NCBI GenBank assembly: GCA_938003855.1 | Contig: CALKXD010000152.1 | Coordinates: forward strand, 1 to 51,694 | DNA length: 51,694 nucleotides | DNA from: an uncultured Granulosicoccaceae bacterium | Lineage (GTDB): Bacteria; Pseudomonadota; Gammaproteobacteria; Granulosicoccales; Granulosicoccaceae | Reading direction: 5' to 3' | Shown: in pieces, positions 17,883 through 50,092 of the stretch | Layout of the letters: the number at the start of each line of letters is the position of its first letter | Position numbering within the stretch: the first letter of the stretch is position 1 | Made by a program: the position numbers and the translations under genes | Notes under the pieces: model-generated | Told to the model about the DNA's origin: nothing | The model's database searches: none | The model's input: the letters and a program-made list of their open reading frames with translations, nothing else

Positions 17883-18152
17883 AGGATACTCTCCGTTTTA
17901 TTAATTGGCCGTGCGCATGGCTGTTAGTGTGCGGCTGCTGAGGGCATTATAGTAGCAATAGACAACTGTGCGGCGGCTAGCGCTGTCGATCTGATCTGTT
18001 TATTATTCACCGGGTGCGGTCGTCACTGTCGGCAGTCATGCTGGTCGCACTCTGGTGTTTGTGAAACTTAATGTCACTTGATCAGGCATTCAAGTCGTTA
18101 CAGGTTCTCCTGTGCCGGTCCCGACGATACAATAGGCGACACACCCCAACGT

Positions 18153-19034
18153 ATGCGAAATATGCAGACTGGTTTGATAGCAGACCGGCTTACTCAATAC
18201 CTGCGCCTGGTTCGTGCGGACAAGCCCATCGGTGCATTTTTACTGCTGTGGCCAATGCTGTGGACGCTGTGGCTTGTGTCAGAAGGAAAGCCCGATTTGC
18301 TGGTGCTCCTGGTCTTTCTGAGCGGTACTTTCCTGATGCGCTCTGCCGGTTGCGCTATTAATGACTATGCTGACCGGCACATCGATGGTGCGGTAGCCCG
18401 ATCAAAAGACCGCCCGATTGTTAGCGGTCGGGTAACACCCGCAGAGGCATTGCTGGTGGCCGCTACGCTGGCCCTGATGTCTTTCGCGTTGGTTCTGACG
18501 ATGAACCGCCTGACTATTTTGTTGTCTTTTGTCGGTGTCGCGCTGGCGGCGGTTTATCCGTTTTGCAAGCGCGTAACCCATTGGCCGCAATTGGTGCTGG
18601 GGTTGGCATTTGGCTGGGCGGTGCCAATGGTGAGCGCCGCTCAGACAGAGCGTATTGTGCCAATGGCCTGGTGGATTTATCTGGCGGCCATATTGTGGGC
18701 GCTTGCCTACGACACCATTTACGCTATGGTGGACAGGGACGATGACCTGAAACTAGGGGTTAAATCAACCGCGATCTGGCTGGGCCGATATGATGTCGCA
18801 ATGGTGATGAGTGTTCAGTTCAGTGTGCTGTTCATACTGTTTGCCATCGGAGTCAGCAACGGGCTTTCCTGGCTGTTCTTTTCCGGCCTGGCCCTGGCGC
18901 TGCTGACGGTAGGCCGTCAGTGGACGTTGATTCGCACTCGCAGGCCGGCGGACTGCTTTCAGGCTTTTCTACTCAACAACTACATGGGCGCGGCAATCTT
19001 TCTGGGTGTATTTGCTCATTATCTTGCCCGATAA
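18153..19034 (+). CDS. ubiA: 4-hydroxybenzoate octaprenyltransferase
   Basis: This polytopic membrane enzyme attaches the polyprenyl tail to 4-hydroxybenzoate in ubiquinone synthesis. Both Asp-rich motifs are visible: NDYADRHIDGAVARSKDRP and DTIYAMVDRDDDLKLGVKST. The ATG at 18153 gives about 293 residues, close to family length. ATG 18162 is three codons later, and the frame is open upstream to 18078, which would add an unlikely 25-residue polar extension. The octaprenyl synthase gene ispB for its other substrate lies at 47.4 kb. The next gene, a GTPase, starts 64-76 bp later on the same strand. Confidence 0.95.
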   Translation: MRNMQTGLIADRLTQYLRLVRADKPIGAFLLLWPMLWTLWLVSEGKPDLLVLLVFLSGTFLMRSAGCAINDYADRHIDGAVARSKDRPIVSGRVTPAEALLVAATLALMSFALVLTMNRLTILLSFVGVALAAVYPFCKRVTHWPQLVLGLAFGWAVPMVSAAQTERIVPMAWWIYLAAILWALAYDTIYAMVDRDDDLKLGVKSTAIWLGRYDVAMVMSVQFSVLFILFAIGVSNGLSWLFFSGLALALLTVGRQWTLIRTRRPADCFQAFLLNNYMGAAIFLGVFAHYLAR

Positions 19035-19109
19035 TCACTTGAAAAAAATGACTCTACAACTGGCAGTGAGGCAACCCGGTGCATACGACTCACGGGTGTG
19101 GCGACACTG

Positions 19110-20900
19110 ATGCGCGATTTTCTATCGCTGCTAACGGCGCGATATCGTGCGGCACTGGCGAGTGATCTGGACGCCGATAAGGACGACGTTGACGAGCTCC
19201 GGGAAGCAATTGCCTCGCTGGCGCTGGCGGAATCGGCCCTTGATAAGGTATCGCTCTGTGAGCGGTACCCGCAGCGCCCGCTGCAGCTGGTGGTTATAGG
19301 TCCAACCCAGGTCGGTAAAAGTACGATGGTCAATCAGTTGCTGCATCAGCAACTGGCAGAAGCCAGTCCGATGGCCGGATTTACCGTACATTTACAGGGC
19401 TATGCTGTCACTGACAGAATTGCCGACCCTTCCGGGAGGGACTGGAGCACCAGTTATTTTCGTGAGCAGTCTGCGCGAGCGCAGCAAGCACTTGATCGGG
19501 AAATTCTCGATGAATACTCAATTACTGACGTGGAATCCGTCGCCGGTAACCCTTTTGTTGATACCGTGGTGTGGGATACACCGGATTTCGACTCGGTGGC
19601 GTCGTTTAATTACCGTCGCTCAGTGTTGCATGCCGTTTCGCTAGCCGACCTGATTGTGTTTGTTGTCAGCAAGGAAAAGTACGCCGACAAAACGGTCTGG
19701 CAGTTTTTATCCCTGTTGCATCAGTTGAATGCCCGTGTTCTGCTGGTGATGAATAAAACGCCGGTTGAAGTGCGTGAACAGCTTGCCGATTCTGTTACTC
19801 GAAAGTATACCCAGTTGCTGGCAGAGGCCAATGAACCACGCAAATCAACGCTGCCGCAATTGCTGTTTTTAGATGATTATGGTCTTGATACCGATGCGGC
19901 CATGGTCAGCGCTGAAATGGCCGGGATACGTGCGACAGTCAGTGCCGAACTGCTCAAGCACGAAAAAATAAGCCGCGACTGCGTTGCTTTGCGTACCGAT
20001 GCCGTGCGATTTATGCAATCTCAATGGTCGTTGTGGACCGCGCCGCTCGACAGTCAACTGCGTCTTAGGCGTGACTGGAAAAACCACATTGACACCACTT
20101 GCGATGACCTGCTGAAACGCTATCGCACTGAGTACCTCGATCACTCGCGGTATCGCGAGACTTTTCAACTGGCGCTTGCCGAGTTGTTAGTGCTGCTGGA
20201 GGTACCCGGCATGGCTGAGCCTCTCGGTAAAATACGCAACCTTGTGACCTGGCCTGTAAGAAAGCTGCTGTCAACGGCGCGGGAGTCGCGCACTGAGTCA
20301 GGACCGAAGGATGAACGCACGGAGGAGCGTCGCGTATTGGATGAACTTGGCGAACATGGAATGACCCGGCTTGCCAGTCAAATTACGCTGGCGCCCACTG
20401 ACCGTGAATTGTGGCAGCAGGTCGGCGACAACTTCGCGCAAAGCAATGACGCTGTTCTGGAAAAATACCAAAGCGGGCTCGACAACTATCAGACGCTGTT
20501 ACAGGTAGAAATTGAACGCGCAGCACACTCTTTGTACCGCCGTCTGCAAGAGCAGCCGGCTACTCTTAACGGGCTGAGAGCGGCGCGTGTGTCAGCGGAT
20601 GCGGCGGCGGTGGTGCTAGCCGTGAAGTCCGGCGGACTCGGAGCCGCTGATTTAATCATTGCCCCGGCGATGTTGTCGTTGACCACCATGCTGACGGAAG
20701 GAGCGCTCGGTCAATACATGCAAACGGTTCAGGATGATCTGCGGCGCTATCAGGAAAAGGAGGTTGCCTCGTTGATTAGTCGCAAACTGCGCACCCCGCT
20801 TTACCCGCTCTCTGCGGTGGCCCGGCAGGAAGGTATCCCCGAGGTTGCAGAAACTGAATTGCGAGCGGCACAGGAAAAACTGGAGCGTGGTGATGTCTGA
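19110..20900 (+). CDS. Large dynamin-like GTPase A of a tandem pair
   Basis: From ATG 19110 the product is 596 residues (a GTG at 19098 adds four). Numbered from the ATG, a P-loop GPTQVGKST stands at 64-72, a switch II-like DTPDFDS at 156-162 and an NKTP base-recognition motif at 215-218, giving a TRAFAC-class GTPase of the dynamin/Era-like kind. The C-terminal two thirds is mainly helical, with an Ala/Leu-rich hydrophobic stretch around 503-535 that could insert into or lie on membrane. The stop overlaps the start of a second, related GTPase gene by 8 bp, so the two are translationally coupled. I do not recognise a characterised family. The pair resembles bacterial dynamin-like pairs only in general architecture. 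Confidence 0.85.
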   Translation: MRDFLSLLTARYRAALASDLDADKDDVDELREAIASLALAESALDKVSLCERYPQRPLQLVVIGPTQVGKSTMVNQLLHQQLAEASPMAGFTVHLQGYAVTDRIADPSGRDWSTSYFREQSARAQQALDREILDEYSITDVESVAGNPFVDTVVWDTPDFDSVASFNYRRSVLHAVSLADLIVFVVSKEKYADKTVWQFLSLLHQLNARVLLVMNKTPVEVREQLADSVTRKYTQLLAEANEPRKSTLPQLLFLDDYGLDTDAAMVSAEMAGIRATVSAELLKHEKISRDCVALRTDAVRFMQSQWSLWTAPLDSQLRLRRDWKNHIDTTCDDLLKRYRTEYLDHSRYRETFQLALAELLVLLEVPGMAEPLGKIRNLVTWPVRKLLSTARESRTESGPKDERTEERRVLDELGEHGMTRLASQITLAPTDRELWQQVGDNFAQSNDAVLEKYQSGLDNYQTLLQVEIERAAHSLYRRLQEQPATLNGLRAARVSADAAAVVLAVKSGGLGAADLIIAPAMLSLTTMLTEGALGQYMQTVQDDLRRYQEKEVASLISRKLRTPLYPLSAVARQEGIPEVAETELRAAQEKLERGDV

Positions 20901-22557
20901 GCAGGAAGCAAGAGCGCTATTTGCCGATGCCCGCAAATTTACGCAAAAGTTGTCTGCTGCGGGCTGGATCGCCGATGTCGACACCAGCGCTTATACCACC
21001 ACTGCGCCGACTGACTTGTTTGATGGCAACAATGACAATCGACCTTTGGTGGTTGGTCTGTTTGGTGGCACCGGGGTAGGTAAAAGCAGTTTGCTGAATA
21101 AGCTGGCCGGTGTTGATATCGCACGTACCGGCGTCGTGCGACCAACCTCAATGGAAATAACCGCTTATCTGCACTCGGATCGGCGTATTGCACACCTTCC
21201 CGAAGGATTCCCTGTCGGGCAGTTTTCTGAGCATCGCCATAACAATGATATCTATCGCGATGTTGTGTGGGTTGATATGCCCGATTTTGACAGCGAAGAA
21301 ACACAGAATCGTGATCAGGTCATGCAGTGGCTGCCGCACATAGATTTACTGCTCTATGTGGTTACACCCGAGCGCTACAAAGACGAGGAAGGCTGGCGAC
21401 TGCTGCTGGAGCATGGTTACCGTCACGGCTGGCTGTTTGTGATGAATCAATGGGACCGGGCGGTGGAGGAGCAGTTCAGCGACTTTCGATCATTGCTGGT
21501 ACGAGCGGGCTTTTCAGACCCGGTGATTTTCCGCACGGTTAGTAATAGCAGCGCTCATGAGCTTGACGCGACAGCAAATCTCGGTGAATTTGTCGCTCGA
21601 CTATCCGAGCGAAAAAATGTGCTGCAACTTGATGAACGTGGCTGGCTGCAGCGCTTGTATACCGCCAGCAGCAGCTTGCAAAAGCAAATAGATGACCTCA
21701 ATCAGGTGCAATCCGAAGGATCGCTGCAAGACAGTTATAGAGTGCATTGGCAGGATGCGCGCGATGCGATTCAGAGTAACCTGGATATTCCATTCCGGGA
21801 GTTCAGTAACGGCTTCGCGAAAAACCAGCTCGACCCCTTGCGCTCTATGGTTAAGTCTCTGGGGGGCCCTGGGGATGCGGCAACCATTGGACGGCAAATA
21901 GCGTCTCGTGCGGAAGCCGAAATGTTATGGGATAGCTGGTCGGCCGTGCGCCTGACTGACTCTCTGGCCCGGTTCCATATGGATTCACAGGCGCATGGTG
22001 TACCGCATAAAAAACTGGAAATGGTTACCGCCGGATCCGTTCAAACCGCCACTGCGGCTGTGCGCAAGCAACTCGGAAGTCATTTGGATGAGGCATTGGT
22101 GCGCCCGGGGACGCACTACCAGCGTGTCGCGGGGAAAGTGCTGGGCTACCTTTGTCTGTTGCTGCCTGTCGCGGCACTGGCCTGGATCGGATATCGGGTG
22201 GTCAATGGTTTCATTAACGGGGTTGATGATGAAAGTGCGTATGTCAGTGTGAATTTCCTGGTCAACGGGCTAATGTTGGCGGGTTTGGCCTGGTTGGTGC
22301 CCTGGGGGCTTGGGCGTTTGTTCATCCCCTCAGTGCCGGACTCGGTCTATGCCGGTCTGCAGGCAGCCGTCAACGAGGGGCTGGCTGAGGCCGAGAGCGA
22401 TGTCAACGCCCAGTTGCAGGTCGTCGCCGCTGAGAAAAATACCCTTCTGACAGAGGCCAATCAATTGCAGAGCGCACTTGAATCTACCTGTGCGCGTTCG
22501 ACGATTCTAGAAAACCCCGAGTTGAAAAAAGTACTGATGGCGTATCCGCAAAATTGA
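20893..22557 (+). CDS. Large dynamin-like membrane GTPase B of a tandem pair
   Basis: From ATG 20893 (overlapping the previous stop within ATGTCTGA) the product is 554 residues. Motifs are a P-loop GGTGVGKSS at 58-66, a conserved Thr in RPTSMEIT, DMPDFDS at 128-134 and NQWD at 185-188 in place of NKxD. A helical region follows, then two transmembrane helices at about 414-434 and 455-477, and a C-terminal amphipathic helix rich in Ala, Glu and Gln. The shared D-x-P-D-F-D-S motif shows kinship with the upstream GTPase. An upstream in-frame start at 20845 is possible but would lengthen the overlap. Likely role: membrane remodelling or stress-linked membrane maintenance together with its partner, by inference only. 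Confidence 0.85.
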   Translation: MSEQEARALFADARKFTQKLSAAGWIADVDTSAYTTTAPTDLFDGNNDNRPLVVGLFGGTGVGKSSLLNKLAGVDIARTGVVRPTSMEITAYLHSDRRIAHLPEGFPVGQFSEHRHNNDIYRDVVWVDMPDFDSEETQNRDQVMQWLPHIDLLLYVVTPERYKDEEGWRLLLEHGYRHGWLFVMNQWDRAVEEQFSDFRSLLVRAGFSDPVIFRTVSNSSAHELDATANLGEFVARLSERKNVLQLDERGWLQRLYTASSSLQKQIDDLNQVQSEGSLQDSYRVHWQDARDAIQSNLDIPFREFSNGFAKNQLDPLRSMVKSLGGPGDAATIGRQIASRAEAEMLWDSWSAVRLTDSLARFHMDSQAHGVPHKKLEMVTAGSVQTATAAVRKQLGSHLDEALVRPGTHYQRVAGKVLGYLCLLLPVAALAWIGYRVVNGFINGVDDESAYVSVNFLVNGLMLAGLAWLVPWGLGRLFIPSVPDSVYAGLQAAVNEGLAEAESDVNAQLQVVAAEKNTLLTEANQLQSALESTCARSTILENPELKKVLMAYPQN

Positions 22558-22625: not shown

Positions 22626-22798
22626 ATAGCTAGTGCCCATCCAGAAACAAGCGCTACTGCGTACCACTCAGGCACGCACTCTTTTACCGGCCACAGGTAG
22701 TTACTTAAGAGCAACTAAGCACCTCCATGGGATAGGCAAAATCTCACGCCCCTGAATGATCCTCGCGACCCCCTGTTTCTGGATAGGCACGAACTATG
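22626..22798. repeat. Imperfect fold-back element between convergent genes
   Basis: The best-conserved arms, 22633-22651 and 22772-22790, are inverted copies matching at 17 of 19 bases (core ATCCAGAAACA). Inside them the complementarity continues in register at about 55-60 percent toward the centre near 22712, without insertions over the next 39 bases, so the whole 170-175 bp is one degenerate palindrome. It sits between the GTPase B and comF stops and its right end covers the comF stop codon. No open frame lies inside. It could be a MITE-like relic or a long 3' RNA structure. Confidence 0.5.
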
Positions 22799-23522
22799 GC
22801 GTTCTGGCGAAGACCCAGACGGCTATGCCTGCCGCTCCGGCTTTATGCAGACTGTTCGCCAGTGATCTGCAGGTAGCGCCGGTAGTGTACACATCATCGA
22901 TGATGGCGATTCGCTTGCCACGGACATCTCCAACAACTTCAAACGCGCGTTTGATATTGAGGTCCCGCGCTCGAGCACCTAATTGTGCCTGAGGGGATGG
23001 GGCGGTTACCCGGATTGTGCTGCGTCTGTCGATTGAAATGGCCAACCGTTTTGCCAGAATAGTTGCAACTTGTTCGGCCTGGTTGTAACCGCGCTCACGC
23101 AGCCTTTGCTGGTGTAGAGGAACCGCCACCAAAATGTCAGGCTGATACCTGTCTGGACGAGCCAATACAGCGCGGCTCATCAATTCGCCGATAATACGAC
23201 TGTATTTGAGTTCACCAGCAAACTTCAAACGTTTGACCATATAGTCGACCGGTGGCCGGTACAGGTACGGTGCAATAGTCTCGACAAAGGGTGTTGGTGA
23301 GGTAAGGCAGTGGCCACACAAGATTTGTGCGGTACTATCTGCCTGTCTTGTCAGGTCAGGTGTCGGTCGCTGCGGTAACGGCAGGGCACATCGGGCACAG
23401 CAATTGCCATTCACGGGTAGCATCCGGCAGCACTGGACGCAAAGATCCAGTTGCCCTTTTGCTGTGTCGTCGCACAGCGCACAGGTTGCAGGCGCGATGT
23501 TGTTGTAAATAATTCTGAACAC
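22794..23522 (-). CDS. comF: ComF-family phosphoribosyltransferase-like protein
   Basis: The 242-residue protein has an N-terminal zinc-binding part with paired cysteines (CALC, CVQCC, CCARC, CGHC) and a C-terminal phosphoribosyltransferase fold with the PRPP-binding motif IAIIDDVYTTGATC near residues 206-219. RERGYNQAEQVA is another family landmark. ComF/GntX proteins are needed for DNA uptake in competent bacteria and for use of DNA as nutrient. Their chemistry is unsettled. The gene is alone on the minus strand. Its 3' end overlaps the fold-back element described separately. Confidence 0.9.
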   Translation of the reverse strand: MFRIIYNNIAPATCALCDDTAKGQLDLCVQCCRMLPVNGNCCARCALPLPQRPTPDLTRQADSTAQILCGHCLTSPTPFVETIAPYLYRPPVDYMVKRLKFAGELKYSRIIGELMSRAVLARPDRYQPDILVAVPLHQQRLRERGYNQAEQVATILAKRLAISIDRRSTIRVTAPSPQAQLGARARDLNIKRAFEVVGDVRGKRIAIIDDVYTTGATCRSLANSLHKAGAAGIAVWVFARTP

Positions 23523-33326: not shown

Positions 33327-34061
33327 CTATTGATAGTTGTCGGTGACTAATCTTAGACGCGGCTTGCCGGTCTCGGAGTGTTCCGGATCTTCGGACGTGT
33401 CATCGGACGATGCCGGATCAGAGTTATTATTCCCCGGCCACCAGGATTTTGCCGAGATAGCTTGATTCATGGCCTGTGCGAGTCCATCCATAAATTCCTC
33501 ACGCTGACTCTTGCCAAGCAGCCATTCGCGATACATCGGTTCGGTACTGATTTTGTCCTCGGTGCCATCACGCATCTTCCATTGCATTGTGTAGCGTGGT
33601 CGCATATCACGCCACACCAGCATGCCAATCAAAAAACCGAGCATAATCGGCAGGTAGACAATGGCATAGTTTTGCGATGTCTCCTTAAATATATCAATGG
33701 CAATAGCGACAACTAGCATTAGCGTTGAAGTAAGTAAAAGTACTTTACAGAATAAACGGTTGACTGGTGTAGCCCGGTAGTAGTTTTTATGCAGGCTGAT
33801 CATGTGCTCAAACATATACGTTTTGAACATGCGATCGTTCGGGTCTATATAGGCCAGGCGGGTGTTTGTGACGAGCACGGTGCCCTTGCGGAAAATCTCT
33901 GTCTCACCCGGAAACAGTTCAATCGGCTTCGGGCTGCTGCTGCCTGCGCTGAAGTGTCTCTTGTAAAATGACACGCACCACTTTTTGAACAGTGCCGGGT
34001 GAATTTGCATGGGGGCTGATTCCGTCTTCGGGTGGACTGCGGCAGCTACTTGCTGCAGCAA
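33327..34061 (-). CDS. Membrane protein with two central TM helices, unknown function
   Basis: The frame is 244 residues. A second Met (codon ending at 34010) would shorten it by 17 and remove an overlap of 16 bp with the upstream methyltransferase gene. The N-terminal soluble part contains LFPGETEIFRKGTVLVTNTR and AYIDPNDRMFKTYMFEHM, reminiscent of bacterial PH-like membrane-protein domains that begin with a conserved 'gE' and 'vTnqRl' pattern. Two hydrophobic helices follow (about 107-125 and 133-150), then a basic/acidic tail rich in Ser, Asp and Pro. I do not recognise a named family. It is probably cotranscribed with the methyltransferase. Confidence 0.7.
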   Translation of the reverse strand: MLQQVAAAVHPKTESAPMQIHPALFKKWCVSFYKRHFSAGSSSPKPIELFPGETEIFRKGTVLVTNTRLAYIDPNDRMFKTYMFEHMISLHKNYYRATPVNRLFCKVLLLTSTLMLVVAIAIDIFKETSQNYAIVYLPIMLGFLIGMLVWRDMRPRYTMQWKMRDGTEDKISTEPMYREWLLGKSQREEFMDGLAQAMNQAISAKSWWPGNNNSDPASSDDTSEDPEHSETGKPRLRLVTDNYQ

Positions 34062-48415: not shown

Positions 48416-50092
48416 CTACCCCCAGTGCTTGCGGCGGGTGTGATTGGACCTGCTGATCGCCCCGAGGACAAGTAACAGCACAAACAGCGGTTGCAATGCA
48501 ACGCTGCCGCCACCAGAGCCACCACCGGTACTGCCCGCTGACGCTGGTGGTGTATTGGAACTGCCAGAGTCATCATTCGTGGCAATCACCAGCGTATCGG
48601 GCGTCTCTTCGGTGGCCGCGATAACAATCTCTGCGCTGTTGTTGACTGGTTGCGGGTCGATAAATGCTATCGCCTCAATTGTCGCTGCGATGTTTTTTTC
48701 GTCAGTGCCTTCGGGTTGCAGAGTAAAAGACAATTTGAAGCTCTCGCCGGCTTCAGTCGCTGGCACCGCGCACTCGAGCAGTGTTGCCGCTTCGATTTCG
48801 CAAAATGCAGGGGCAGCGGCAATCGAGGTATTTTTGAGTTCCACCTTGAGCAGCATTTCCGGGAAGGCCCGGTATTGATCGGTGTTGGTGATAACGGCGG
48901 TGAACGTGTCGGTGCCTTCGAGGGCAAGCGTCAAGCCAGCATCGATTGCATCGATCAGGCAGCTGCCGTAGTGCAGGCCCTGGTTAATGGCGTCTTTGCT
49001 GCAGGTTGAGAAATCTTCGGTGGTGGTGGCGCTGATATGTGAATACATAAGTTGGTCTGTGCTGCCCTTGCACAGGTCGGTTTCGTCGTCATGCAGCGCA
49101 CCGAGATTGTGTCCGATCTCGTGCGCCGTCAGTAGTACCGGGTAGCGAAACGGCAGGGACACGCTGACGTCGTAGCCGTCTGTCCGACAGGCCGAGCCGA
49201 TGTAGGCCAGCCCGACAGAATCATCGCTCGGGGTGGCACCGGTGAATAAATGCACCAGGCTTAGCTCTGGCTCGAGTAAATCGGTACCAAAGCGATAGTC
49301 ACGAAATCGGGCCAGATTTTCTTCCAGTGGAACATTTGCCAGATTCAGTGTTTCGTTGTCTGTGATTATGATTGCATGCTCGACTTTCAGTGCCAGGCCG
49401 AATTTCTCCCGGTACAAACCGTCCACGGAGTTGATTGTTGAGATTGCGTTGTTGAGGCCGCGACCACCGTGGGCTTCGTCATAGAGGTTATCGACCACGA
49501 TAGCAATACTGGCAACGCGCGTAACCGCGCCGGGTTTGTTGGCGAGGTCATTGTTGATGTCGATTTCAACTACTTCGCGTATTTTGCGATTTTGATCATA
49601 GAGGTCCCGGTGCGGCGTGGGGGGGTACACCAGGGTGTCGACCGAGGTGATCGCATGCAGAGCCTTGCGTATTTGCGAGCGGCTCGGCAGCAGGCCACGG
49701 CTGGAGTTAATGTAGTACCGCTCTTTGCCAATGTCGATGATGCCATCGACCAGGCCGTCTTGTATGGCGATGCGAACCCAGGAACCGGGGATGTCTTCAA
49801 CCACACCCTCGTAGGCCAGTTGCGGGACATTGCCAGCAGTCTCAACGGGCTTGCCTGTCGTGTCGGTGATGATTAGATTCTGGAAAGCGGTGCTGTGATT
49901 CAGCAGAAGATTTTCCGCGCGATTGCCGAGCATCAGGGTGGTGCGATAGGCGTAGTCGCCATACTGCAGCCACTCTTGCTGCATCACTGTTACGTCGAAT
50001 ATTTCTTCAGATTGAACGGGCCGAATCAGCGAGAACAGCAGCAGGAAAATCGTTACCACTGCCTCGCACGCCCTGCTTCTGACGAGTATCAT
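48416..50092 (-). CDS. Secreted metzincin metalloprotease with GlyGly-CTERM-like tail
   Basis: The 558-residue protein has a Sec signal peptide (AVVTIFLLLFSLIRP, cleavage near QSEE), a prodomain-like N-terminal region, and a reprolysin/ADAM-type (M12B-like) catalytic domain with the zinc motif HEIGHNLGALHDD near residue 322 followed by a short Cys-containing segment and a Met-turn-like LMYS. A DUF11-like beta-sandwich follows. The C-terminus is GSTGGGSGGGS, a hydrophobic helix, and a basic tail, the plan of GlyGly-CTERM signals processed by rhombosortase for release by type II secretion. It is alone on its strand, convergent with ispB. Confidence 0.88.
   Translation of the reverse strand: MILVRSRACEAVVTIFLLLFSLIRPVQSEEIFDVTVMQQEWLQYGDYAYRTTLMLGNRAENLLLNHSTAFQNLIITDTTGKPVETAGNVPQLAYEGVVEDIPGSWVRIAIQDGLVDGIIDIGKERYYINSSRGLLPSRSQIRKALHAITSVDTLVYPPTPHRDLYDQNRKIREVVEIDINNDLANKPGAVTRVASIAIVVDNLYDEAHGGRGLNNAISTINSVDGLYREKFGLALKVEHAIIITDNETLNLANVPLEENLARFRDYRFGTDLLEPELSLVHLFTGATPSDDSVGLAYIGSACRTDGYDVSVSLPFRYPVLLTAHEIGHNLGALHDDETDLCKGSTDQLMYSHISATTTEDFSTCSKDAINQGLHYGSCLIDAIDAGLTLALEGTDTFTAVITNTDQYRAFPEMLLKVELKNTSIAAAPAFCEIEAATLLECAVPATEAGESFKLSFTLQPEGTDEKNIAATIEAIAFIDPQPVNNSAEIVIAATEETPDTLVIATNDDSGSSNTPPASAGSTGGGSGGGSVALQPLFVLLLVLGAISRSNHTRRKHWG

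Follow-up and report, generated by a model that had tools for sequence, protein, structure and literature searches.

A linked pair of predicted dynamin-like GTPases with an altered switch motif in Granulosicoccaceae and related gammaproteobacteria

A contig of an uncultured Granulosicoccaceae bacterium (assembly GCA_938003855.1, contig CALKXD010000152.1, of which positions 1 to 51,694, a stretch of 51,694 nucleotides, are referred to here as the window) carries two adjacent genes on the + strand, A (19110..20900) and B (20893..22557), that encode predicted dynamin-like GTPases of 596 and 554 amino acids, respectively. It appears probable (we would put the probability at about 0.72) that A and B together form a heterotypic, chromosomal, housekeeping dynamin-like membrane machine, with B as its anchor in the inner membrane. 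Directly in support of this reading are the pairing of the genes in genomes, the predicted fold, the transmembrane (TM) segments and the conservation of the GTPase motifs. B combines a neck and a G domain that are predicted to be mitofusin-like with a C-terminal pair of TM helices; A has no strong TM helix and a single conserved hydrophobic stretch near its C-terminus. A first-pass annotation of the same DNA, made from the sequence alone, had described a translationally coupled pair of large dynamin-like GTPases. The open reading frame (ORF) calls agree with the reading frames, lengths and 8-bp overlap that it gave, and the dynamin-like assignment is borne out by fold matches, the C-terminal TM pair of B, the co-occurrence of the two genes and their adjacency, with the reservation that the G3 motif departs from DxxG.

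Linkage and distribution of the two genes

Chance ORFs can be excluded, since dozens of genomes encode A and B at identities of 32-65%. Their G domains are homologous to each other (BLASTP E 2e-13, 29% identity across 174 aa), and A and B thus appear to be paralogous in this part of the protein. The start of A is taken as the ATG at 19110 (an in-frame GTG is also present at 19098), and its stop overlaps the start of B by 8 bp (20893..20900, + strand); most relatives likewise have an overlap or a short gap between the two genes. A Shine-Dalgarno-like GGAG, read by eye from the sequence, lies 7 nt 5' of the B ATG (20882..20885, + strand).

Of 80 retrieved loci, ORF calls place A directly before B on the same strand in 67, and a six-frame search adds 4; the two genes are separated on the contig in 3, and in the rest, some of which are at contig ends, no A was found. 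Hence, the genes are not unlinked single genes in most relatives. The outer neighbours of the A-B unit are fixed within the host family and differ between lineages (in others they include pabB-like and amino-acid-kinase-like genes, by reading of the sequence), which indicates that the conserved unit consists of the two genes themselves. Neither these outer neighbours nor the genes that separate A from B in genus g5, a sister genus in the host family, recur widely or offer a functional clue. The interposed genes (L186 3564-11632, L190 3850-11632 and L136 6293-11572) are on the opposite strand, and one of them we take, from reading its sequence, to be CobT/VWA-like.

The pair is patchy over the gammaproteobacteria and core in two orders. 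All 48 genomes from the order of the host (Granulosicoccaceae) have it. In a class-wide sample of 274 genomes, 20 have A, and each of these also has B (co-occurrence 20/20); one further, 58%-complete genome has a fragment of B. The second order is that of genome G295, which is presumably Methylococcales, judging from its pmoA and from the names of matching records; B is present in 129 of its 151 genomes, and the 20 negatives listed fall in two families. Close named records belong to Granulosicoccaceae and to a Chromatiales bacterium from Bugula neritina (B 65%), followed by many Methylococcales. A profile of A run over 398 genomes across the phylum gave, outside the host, P-loop matches only.

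This distribution could be taken to suggest a role in the formation or upkeep of intracytoplasmic membranes such as those of type I methanotrophs, given that most genomes of the G295 order carry pmoA and that many of the named records are Methylococcales. However, such a role is improbable: pmoA occurs in only 2 of the 20 pair-bearing genomes of the class-wide sample and is absent from the host, families f251 and f252 have PF02461 (pmoA-like) genes without the pair, and the distribution tracks phylogeny. A link with methanotrophy as a general rule was rejected on the basis of these pmoA tables.

Predicted fold, membrane segments and GTPase motifs

The first-pass annotation had recommended family searches with hidden Markov models (HMMs) and structure prediction. 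The former returned weak or generic GTPase matches for both proteins; the latter, with A and B modelled singly, matched both to the dynamin superfamily. With the proteins as submitted, the generic MMR_HSR1 alone passed the Pfam cut-off for each, and no NCBIfam equivalog fitted (47 bits compared with the EngA cut-off of 306.7). The AlphaFold2 models, built from window and locus sequences (mean predicted local distance difference test, pLDDT, of 85.6 for A and 87.8 for B), have long helices after the G domain. In Foldseek searches of the PDB, each of the two finds its best matches in the bacterial dynamin BDLP (A 1.2e-7; B 8.1e-10), in the C. jejuni DLP1/2 pair, in IniA and in mitofusins. The B model aligns with yeast Fzo1 at Z 23.6 (root-mean-square deviation, rmsd, 3.1 over 291 residues) and with Mfn1 at Z 21.7, compared with about 15-16.5 for GTPases whose match is confined to the G domain; for A, the corresponding values are Z 19.1 with Fzo1 (rmsd 6.3, 323 residues) and about 15 for the G-domain-only rows. 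On these models, both A and B are predicted to have the dynamin-superfamily fold, that is, a G domain followed by a neck/trunk helical stalk.

The first-pass annotation was also right in assigning two TM helices to B and a hydrophobic C-terminal stretch to A. Hydropathy analysis gives two peaks in B (residues ~416-434 and ~451-469) and one in A (residues ~499-517). In B, the first TM-containing helix covers residues 408-441 (22114..22215, + strand; hydropathy peak 1.98) and the second residues 453-476 (22249..22320, + strand; peak 1.82); both are helices in the model and come after the stalk and before the long helix that ends it (481-535). The TM or paddle element of mitofusins and BDLP occupies the same place, between stalk and last helix. 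A membrane-insertion element of this kind is thus predicted for B, and A has only a weak hydrophobic stretch. The conserved hydrophobic region of A (residues 483-530; 20556..20699, + strand) is a candidate membrane paddle of low model confidence, to which a similar STGGL...E..LG-type stretch is aligned in the A-like protein of the actinomycete Nonomuraea.

Motif conservation was scored over 59 A and 67 B sequences, and all coordinates that follow are on the + strand. The G1/P-loops are GPTQVGKS in A (residues 64-71; 19299..19322), in which GPTQ and GKS are invariant, and GGTGVGKS in B (residues 58-65; 21064..21087); the G2 of B is an invariant RPTS (residues 83-86; 21139..21150). G1 (GxxxxGKS/T) and G2 (T/S) of both proteins are canonical and match what is required of bacterial dynamin-like proteins (DLPs). 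For the latter, DxxG at G3 and either RD or N/TxxD at the less conserved G4 are stated to be common to all members (PMC5827413). The G3/switch II motif, with its preceding residue, reads WDTPDFDS in A and VDMPDFDS in B. In both the DTPDFDS of A (residues 156-162; 19575..19595), invariant except for T157, and the DMPDFDS of B (residues 128-134; 21274..21294), in which D128, M, P, D131, D133 and S134 are invariant, an Asp replaces the Gly of DxxG. The family consensus is D[TS]PDFDS in A and DMPD[FIM]DS in B, and the replacement holds in 59/59 and 67/67 sequences, respectively. At G4, B has NQWD (residues 185-188; 21445..21456), with N and D invariant in 67/67 sequences, and A has NKTP (residues 215-218; 19752..19763), in which NK is invariant and the fourth-position Asp of N/TxxD is missing; that Asp is present in 11 of the 59 A sequences, which also keep NK. 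The P-loops, the switch motif and the NQWD of B reported in the first-pass annotation are therefore real and conserved, and the switch motif is distinctive, as it had proposed. The same cannot be said of NQWD, which fits the published dynamin G4 pattern N/TxxD (PMC5827413). Judged from the motifs, the unusual features appear to be the G3 Asp in both proteins and the absent G4 Asp in A. A full-text literature search, with most subscription papers outside its reach, found no paper on a DxPD dynamin motif.

The pair is flanked upstream by ubiA (18078-19034) and downstream, on the opposite strand, by a gene for a ComF-like phosphoribosyltransferase (22794-23522); the further window genes checked are ordinary housekeeping genes. 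Promoter and terminator scans gave nothing richer than shuffled sequence. Elsewhere in the window, a Reprolysin-like (M12B) zinc metalloprotease of 558 aa is encoded at 48419-50092 (- strand), close to obg, murJ and class-I tRNA synthetase genes, and an ORF of 244 aa at 33330-34061 (- strand) has no Pfam match at E 1e-5.

Paired dynamins in other bacteria

Most bacterial DLPs are side-by-side pairs (PMC6104087), and the comparison of A and B with the arrangement of bacterial dynamin-like systems, made in the first-pass annotation, is thus sound. The suggestion that the pair represents an undescribed system holds in part. The same literature search found no paper on such a pair in gammaproteobacteria, methanotrophs or Granulosicoccus; however, paired bacterial dynamins as such are known, actinobacterial pairs share the G3 signature, and a probable analogue exists in Streptomyces DynA/DynB, whose function has been studied.

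The actinobacterial relatives came from a tblastn search of plasmid records, which gave one match, an 11.85-Mb replicon of Nonomuraea gerenzanensis (Actinomycetota). Its two genes (L205 3737-5803 and 5800-7692) are side by side in the same A-B order with a 4-bp overlap, the G3 motifs are DAPDIDS in the A-like and DLPDHDS in the B-like protein, with Asp in both, and the second protein has two C-terminal TM peaks and a weaker peak at about residue 354. The G domains are homologous. In profile comparison, B matches at E 3.8e-18 over the G domain only and A at E 2.1e-12 over 430 columns, hydrophobic motif included; the pair differs from A/B in belonging to another phylum and in B stalks that have diverged past clear alignment. 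Another such pair is found on an IMG/VR contig. The replicon (NZ_LT559118.1, 'plasmid I'), in which hardly any features are annotated, is listed among plasmids but is probably a chromosome.

These data also bear on whether A and B might be a LeoABC-type dynamin that acts against phage or in toxin release and is carried on a mobile island. PADLOC does give weak partial LeoA matches (4e-10 and 1e-7), and LeoABC and IniA/IniC resemble A/B as tandem bacterial dynamins, with a weak HMM match to LeoA and a fold match to IniA. They differ in taxonomy, LeoABC lies on an island, and LeoB retains DxxG (PMC4159319). Moreover, the pair is near-universal in two orders and has fixed neighbours in the host family, no plasmid match was obtained save the chromosome-like Nonomuraea replicon, and a family profile of B found no relative in viral contigs. 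A mobile defence role is therefore disfavoured by a distribution that is that of a core gene pair, and we regard it as very improbable.

Of the characterised systems, Streptomyces DynA/DynB is probably the nearest analogue of A/B, compared by its published description. dynAB form an operon whose products stabilise Z-rings, and two TM segments hold DynB in the membrane (PMC8748795, PMC6428758). Thus, paired neighbouring genes and a second protein with two TM segments are shared; in contrast, the partners of DynA/DynB in actinobacterial sporulation are SepF2, SsgB and SepX, and the host of A/B has no SepF. The Campylobacter jejuni pair Cj-DLP1/Cj-DLP2, whose GTPase activity requires both P-loops, is likewise a heterotypic gene pair of similar fold, yet identity is only 10-12% and the assembly domain of Cj-DLP1 is Campylobacter-specific (PMC6104087). 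Nostoc BDLP1 and the mitofusins (Mfn1, Fzo1) share with the pair the G domain, the neck bundle and the position of the TM/paddle, whereas identity is 11-17% and A and B have DxPD, not DxxG.

Points of doubt, likely function and significance

Several observations weigh against a membrane-anchored dynamin pair with a housekeeping role. As regards family assignment, the stalk match of A is looser than that of B, Pfam Dynamin_N stayed below its cut-off of 27 for both proteins as submitted (A 26.5, B 23.0; A scored 29.6, above the cut-off, in the genome search), and PDB searches by sequence, single and profile, match mainly the P-loop of other GTPases, with Der, Era and YlqF at the top of the profile searches (Cj-DLP1 appears there with A at E 0.0026). 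As regards the motifs, the G3 of both proteins departs from the DxxG stated for all bacterial DLPs (PMC5827413), and A of the window lacks the G4 Asp; GTP hydrolysis is uncertain for these two reasons. As regards linkage, A and B of genus g5 are on the same strand, but most genomes have 0.7-10 kb between them, two have 27 kb or 184 kb, and others carry them on different contigs. Translational coupling, as claimed in the first-pass annotation, is thus plausible in most relatives, where an overlap or short gap fits it, and is neither universal nor essential. Finally, as regards division, SepF, a divisome partner of Streptomyces DynAB, was not found in the host genome, so that any divisome role would use other partners, and no association with MinC is apparent (11/20 pair-bearing vs 104/254 other genomes). 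A role as a substitute for the Min system is not supported by these counts. The host genome (G000) has no MinC match, though MinC is present in two genomes sampled from the same family, which could reflect either a real loss of Min or a gap in the 312-contig assembly.

If the sequence matches were followed literally, A and B would be ribosome-associated GTPases of the Era/Der type with extra helices, as MMR_HSR1 is the only family above the Pfam cut-off and Der, Era and YlqF lead the profile searches. It is, however, hard to reconcile such an identity, which we also consider very improbable, with matches confined mainly to the P-loop, with the fold match of B to mitofusin over residues 1-541, well above the Era/EngB rows, with two TM helices in B, with Pfam matches that include no known RNA-binding domain, or with a score so far below the EngA cut-off. 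A more serious candidate, though still an unlikely one, is that A and B descend from the same pair as Streptomyces DynA/DynB, are its gammaproteobacterial counterpart and stabilise FtsZ rings at the division septum. Gene order, the paired operon and the two TM segments of the second protein agree with it (PMC8748795, PMC6428758), as do the adjacent relatives of both proteins in Nonomuraea with their matching G3 motifs. On the other hand, the Streptomyces pair is known here by description, SepF is missing from the host, and MinC is not rarer in pair-bearing genomes. In the G-domain tree, the actinobacterial side of which comprises Nonomuraea and two IMG/VR fragments only, the four groups are well separated; the tree does not decide how the actinobacterial proteins pair with A and B, a grouping of A with the actinobacterial A having support of 63/28 and alternatives having p-AU (approximately unbiased test) of 0.52 and 0.32.

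Since fold and layout fit and one stated motif fails, A and B are best described as working like a bacterial dynamin pair, as a variant of it. A heterotypic assembly anchored by B is likeliest in view of the work on Cj-DLP1/2 (PMC6104087) and on DynB/DynA (PMC8748795, PMC6428758). B would reside in the inner membrane, its G domain facing the cytoplasm, and A might be tethered both by its hydrophobic tip and by B, the G domains of the two proteins pairing across nucleotide. GTP-driven assembly of A with B could then tether, curve or stabilise the membrane. Because Asp replaces Gly at both G3 motifs and A lacks the G4 Asp, the composite G motifs might confer slow or assembly-dependent turnover, in which B would be the main guanine-binding subunit and A an activator or a subunit with altered nucleotide preference. 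The physical interaction, GTP turnover, membrane action and cellular process are inferred steps of this model. If Streptomyces DynA/DynB is a guide, a housekeeping function is most likely, either maintenance of the inner membrane or support of constriction at division. More tentatively, and at less than even odds, A and B might represent a distinct and widespread clade of dynamins with obligate pairing, Asp at G3 in both proteins and the G4 Asp lost in one, so that their two sites would act as one composite; this clade would serve Granulosicoccales and Methylococcales as a core inner-membrane machine, one subunit of which is mitofusin-like and anchored in the membrane.

What is known of most bacterial dynamins comes from a handful of model systems, and there is dispute over what they do. 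The pair described here is core in two gammaproteobacterial orders that include genera with cultured strains (Methylomonas, Methylobacter), which makes a housekeeping role of paired dynamins testable by deletion. The invariant G3 Asp in both partners offers a direct test of whether dynamin-type GTP hydrolysis needs DxxG, and B, as predicted, would present the mitofusin layout in a compact bacterial form.

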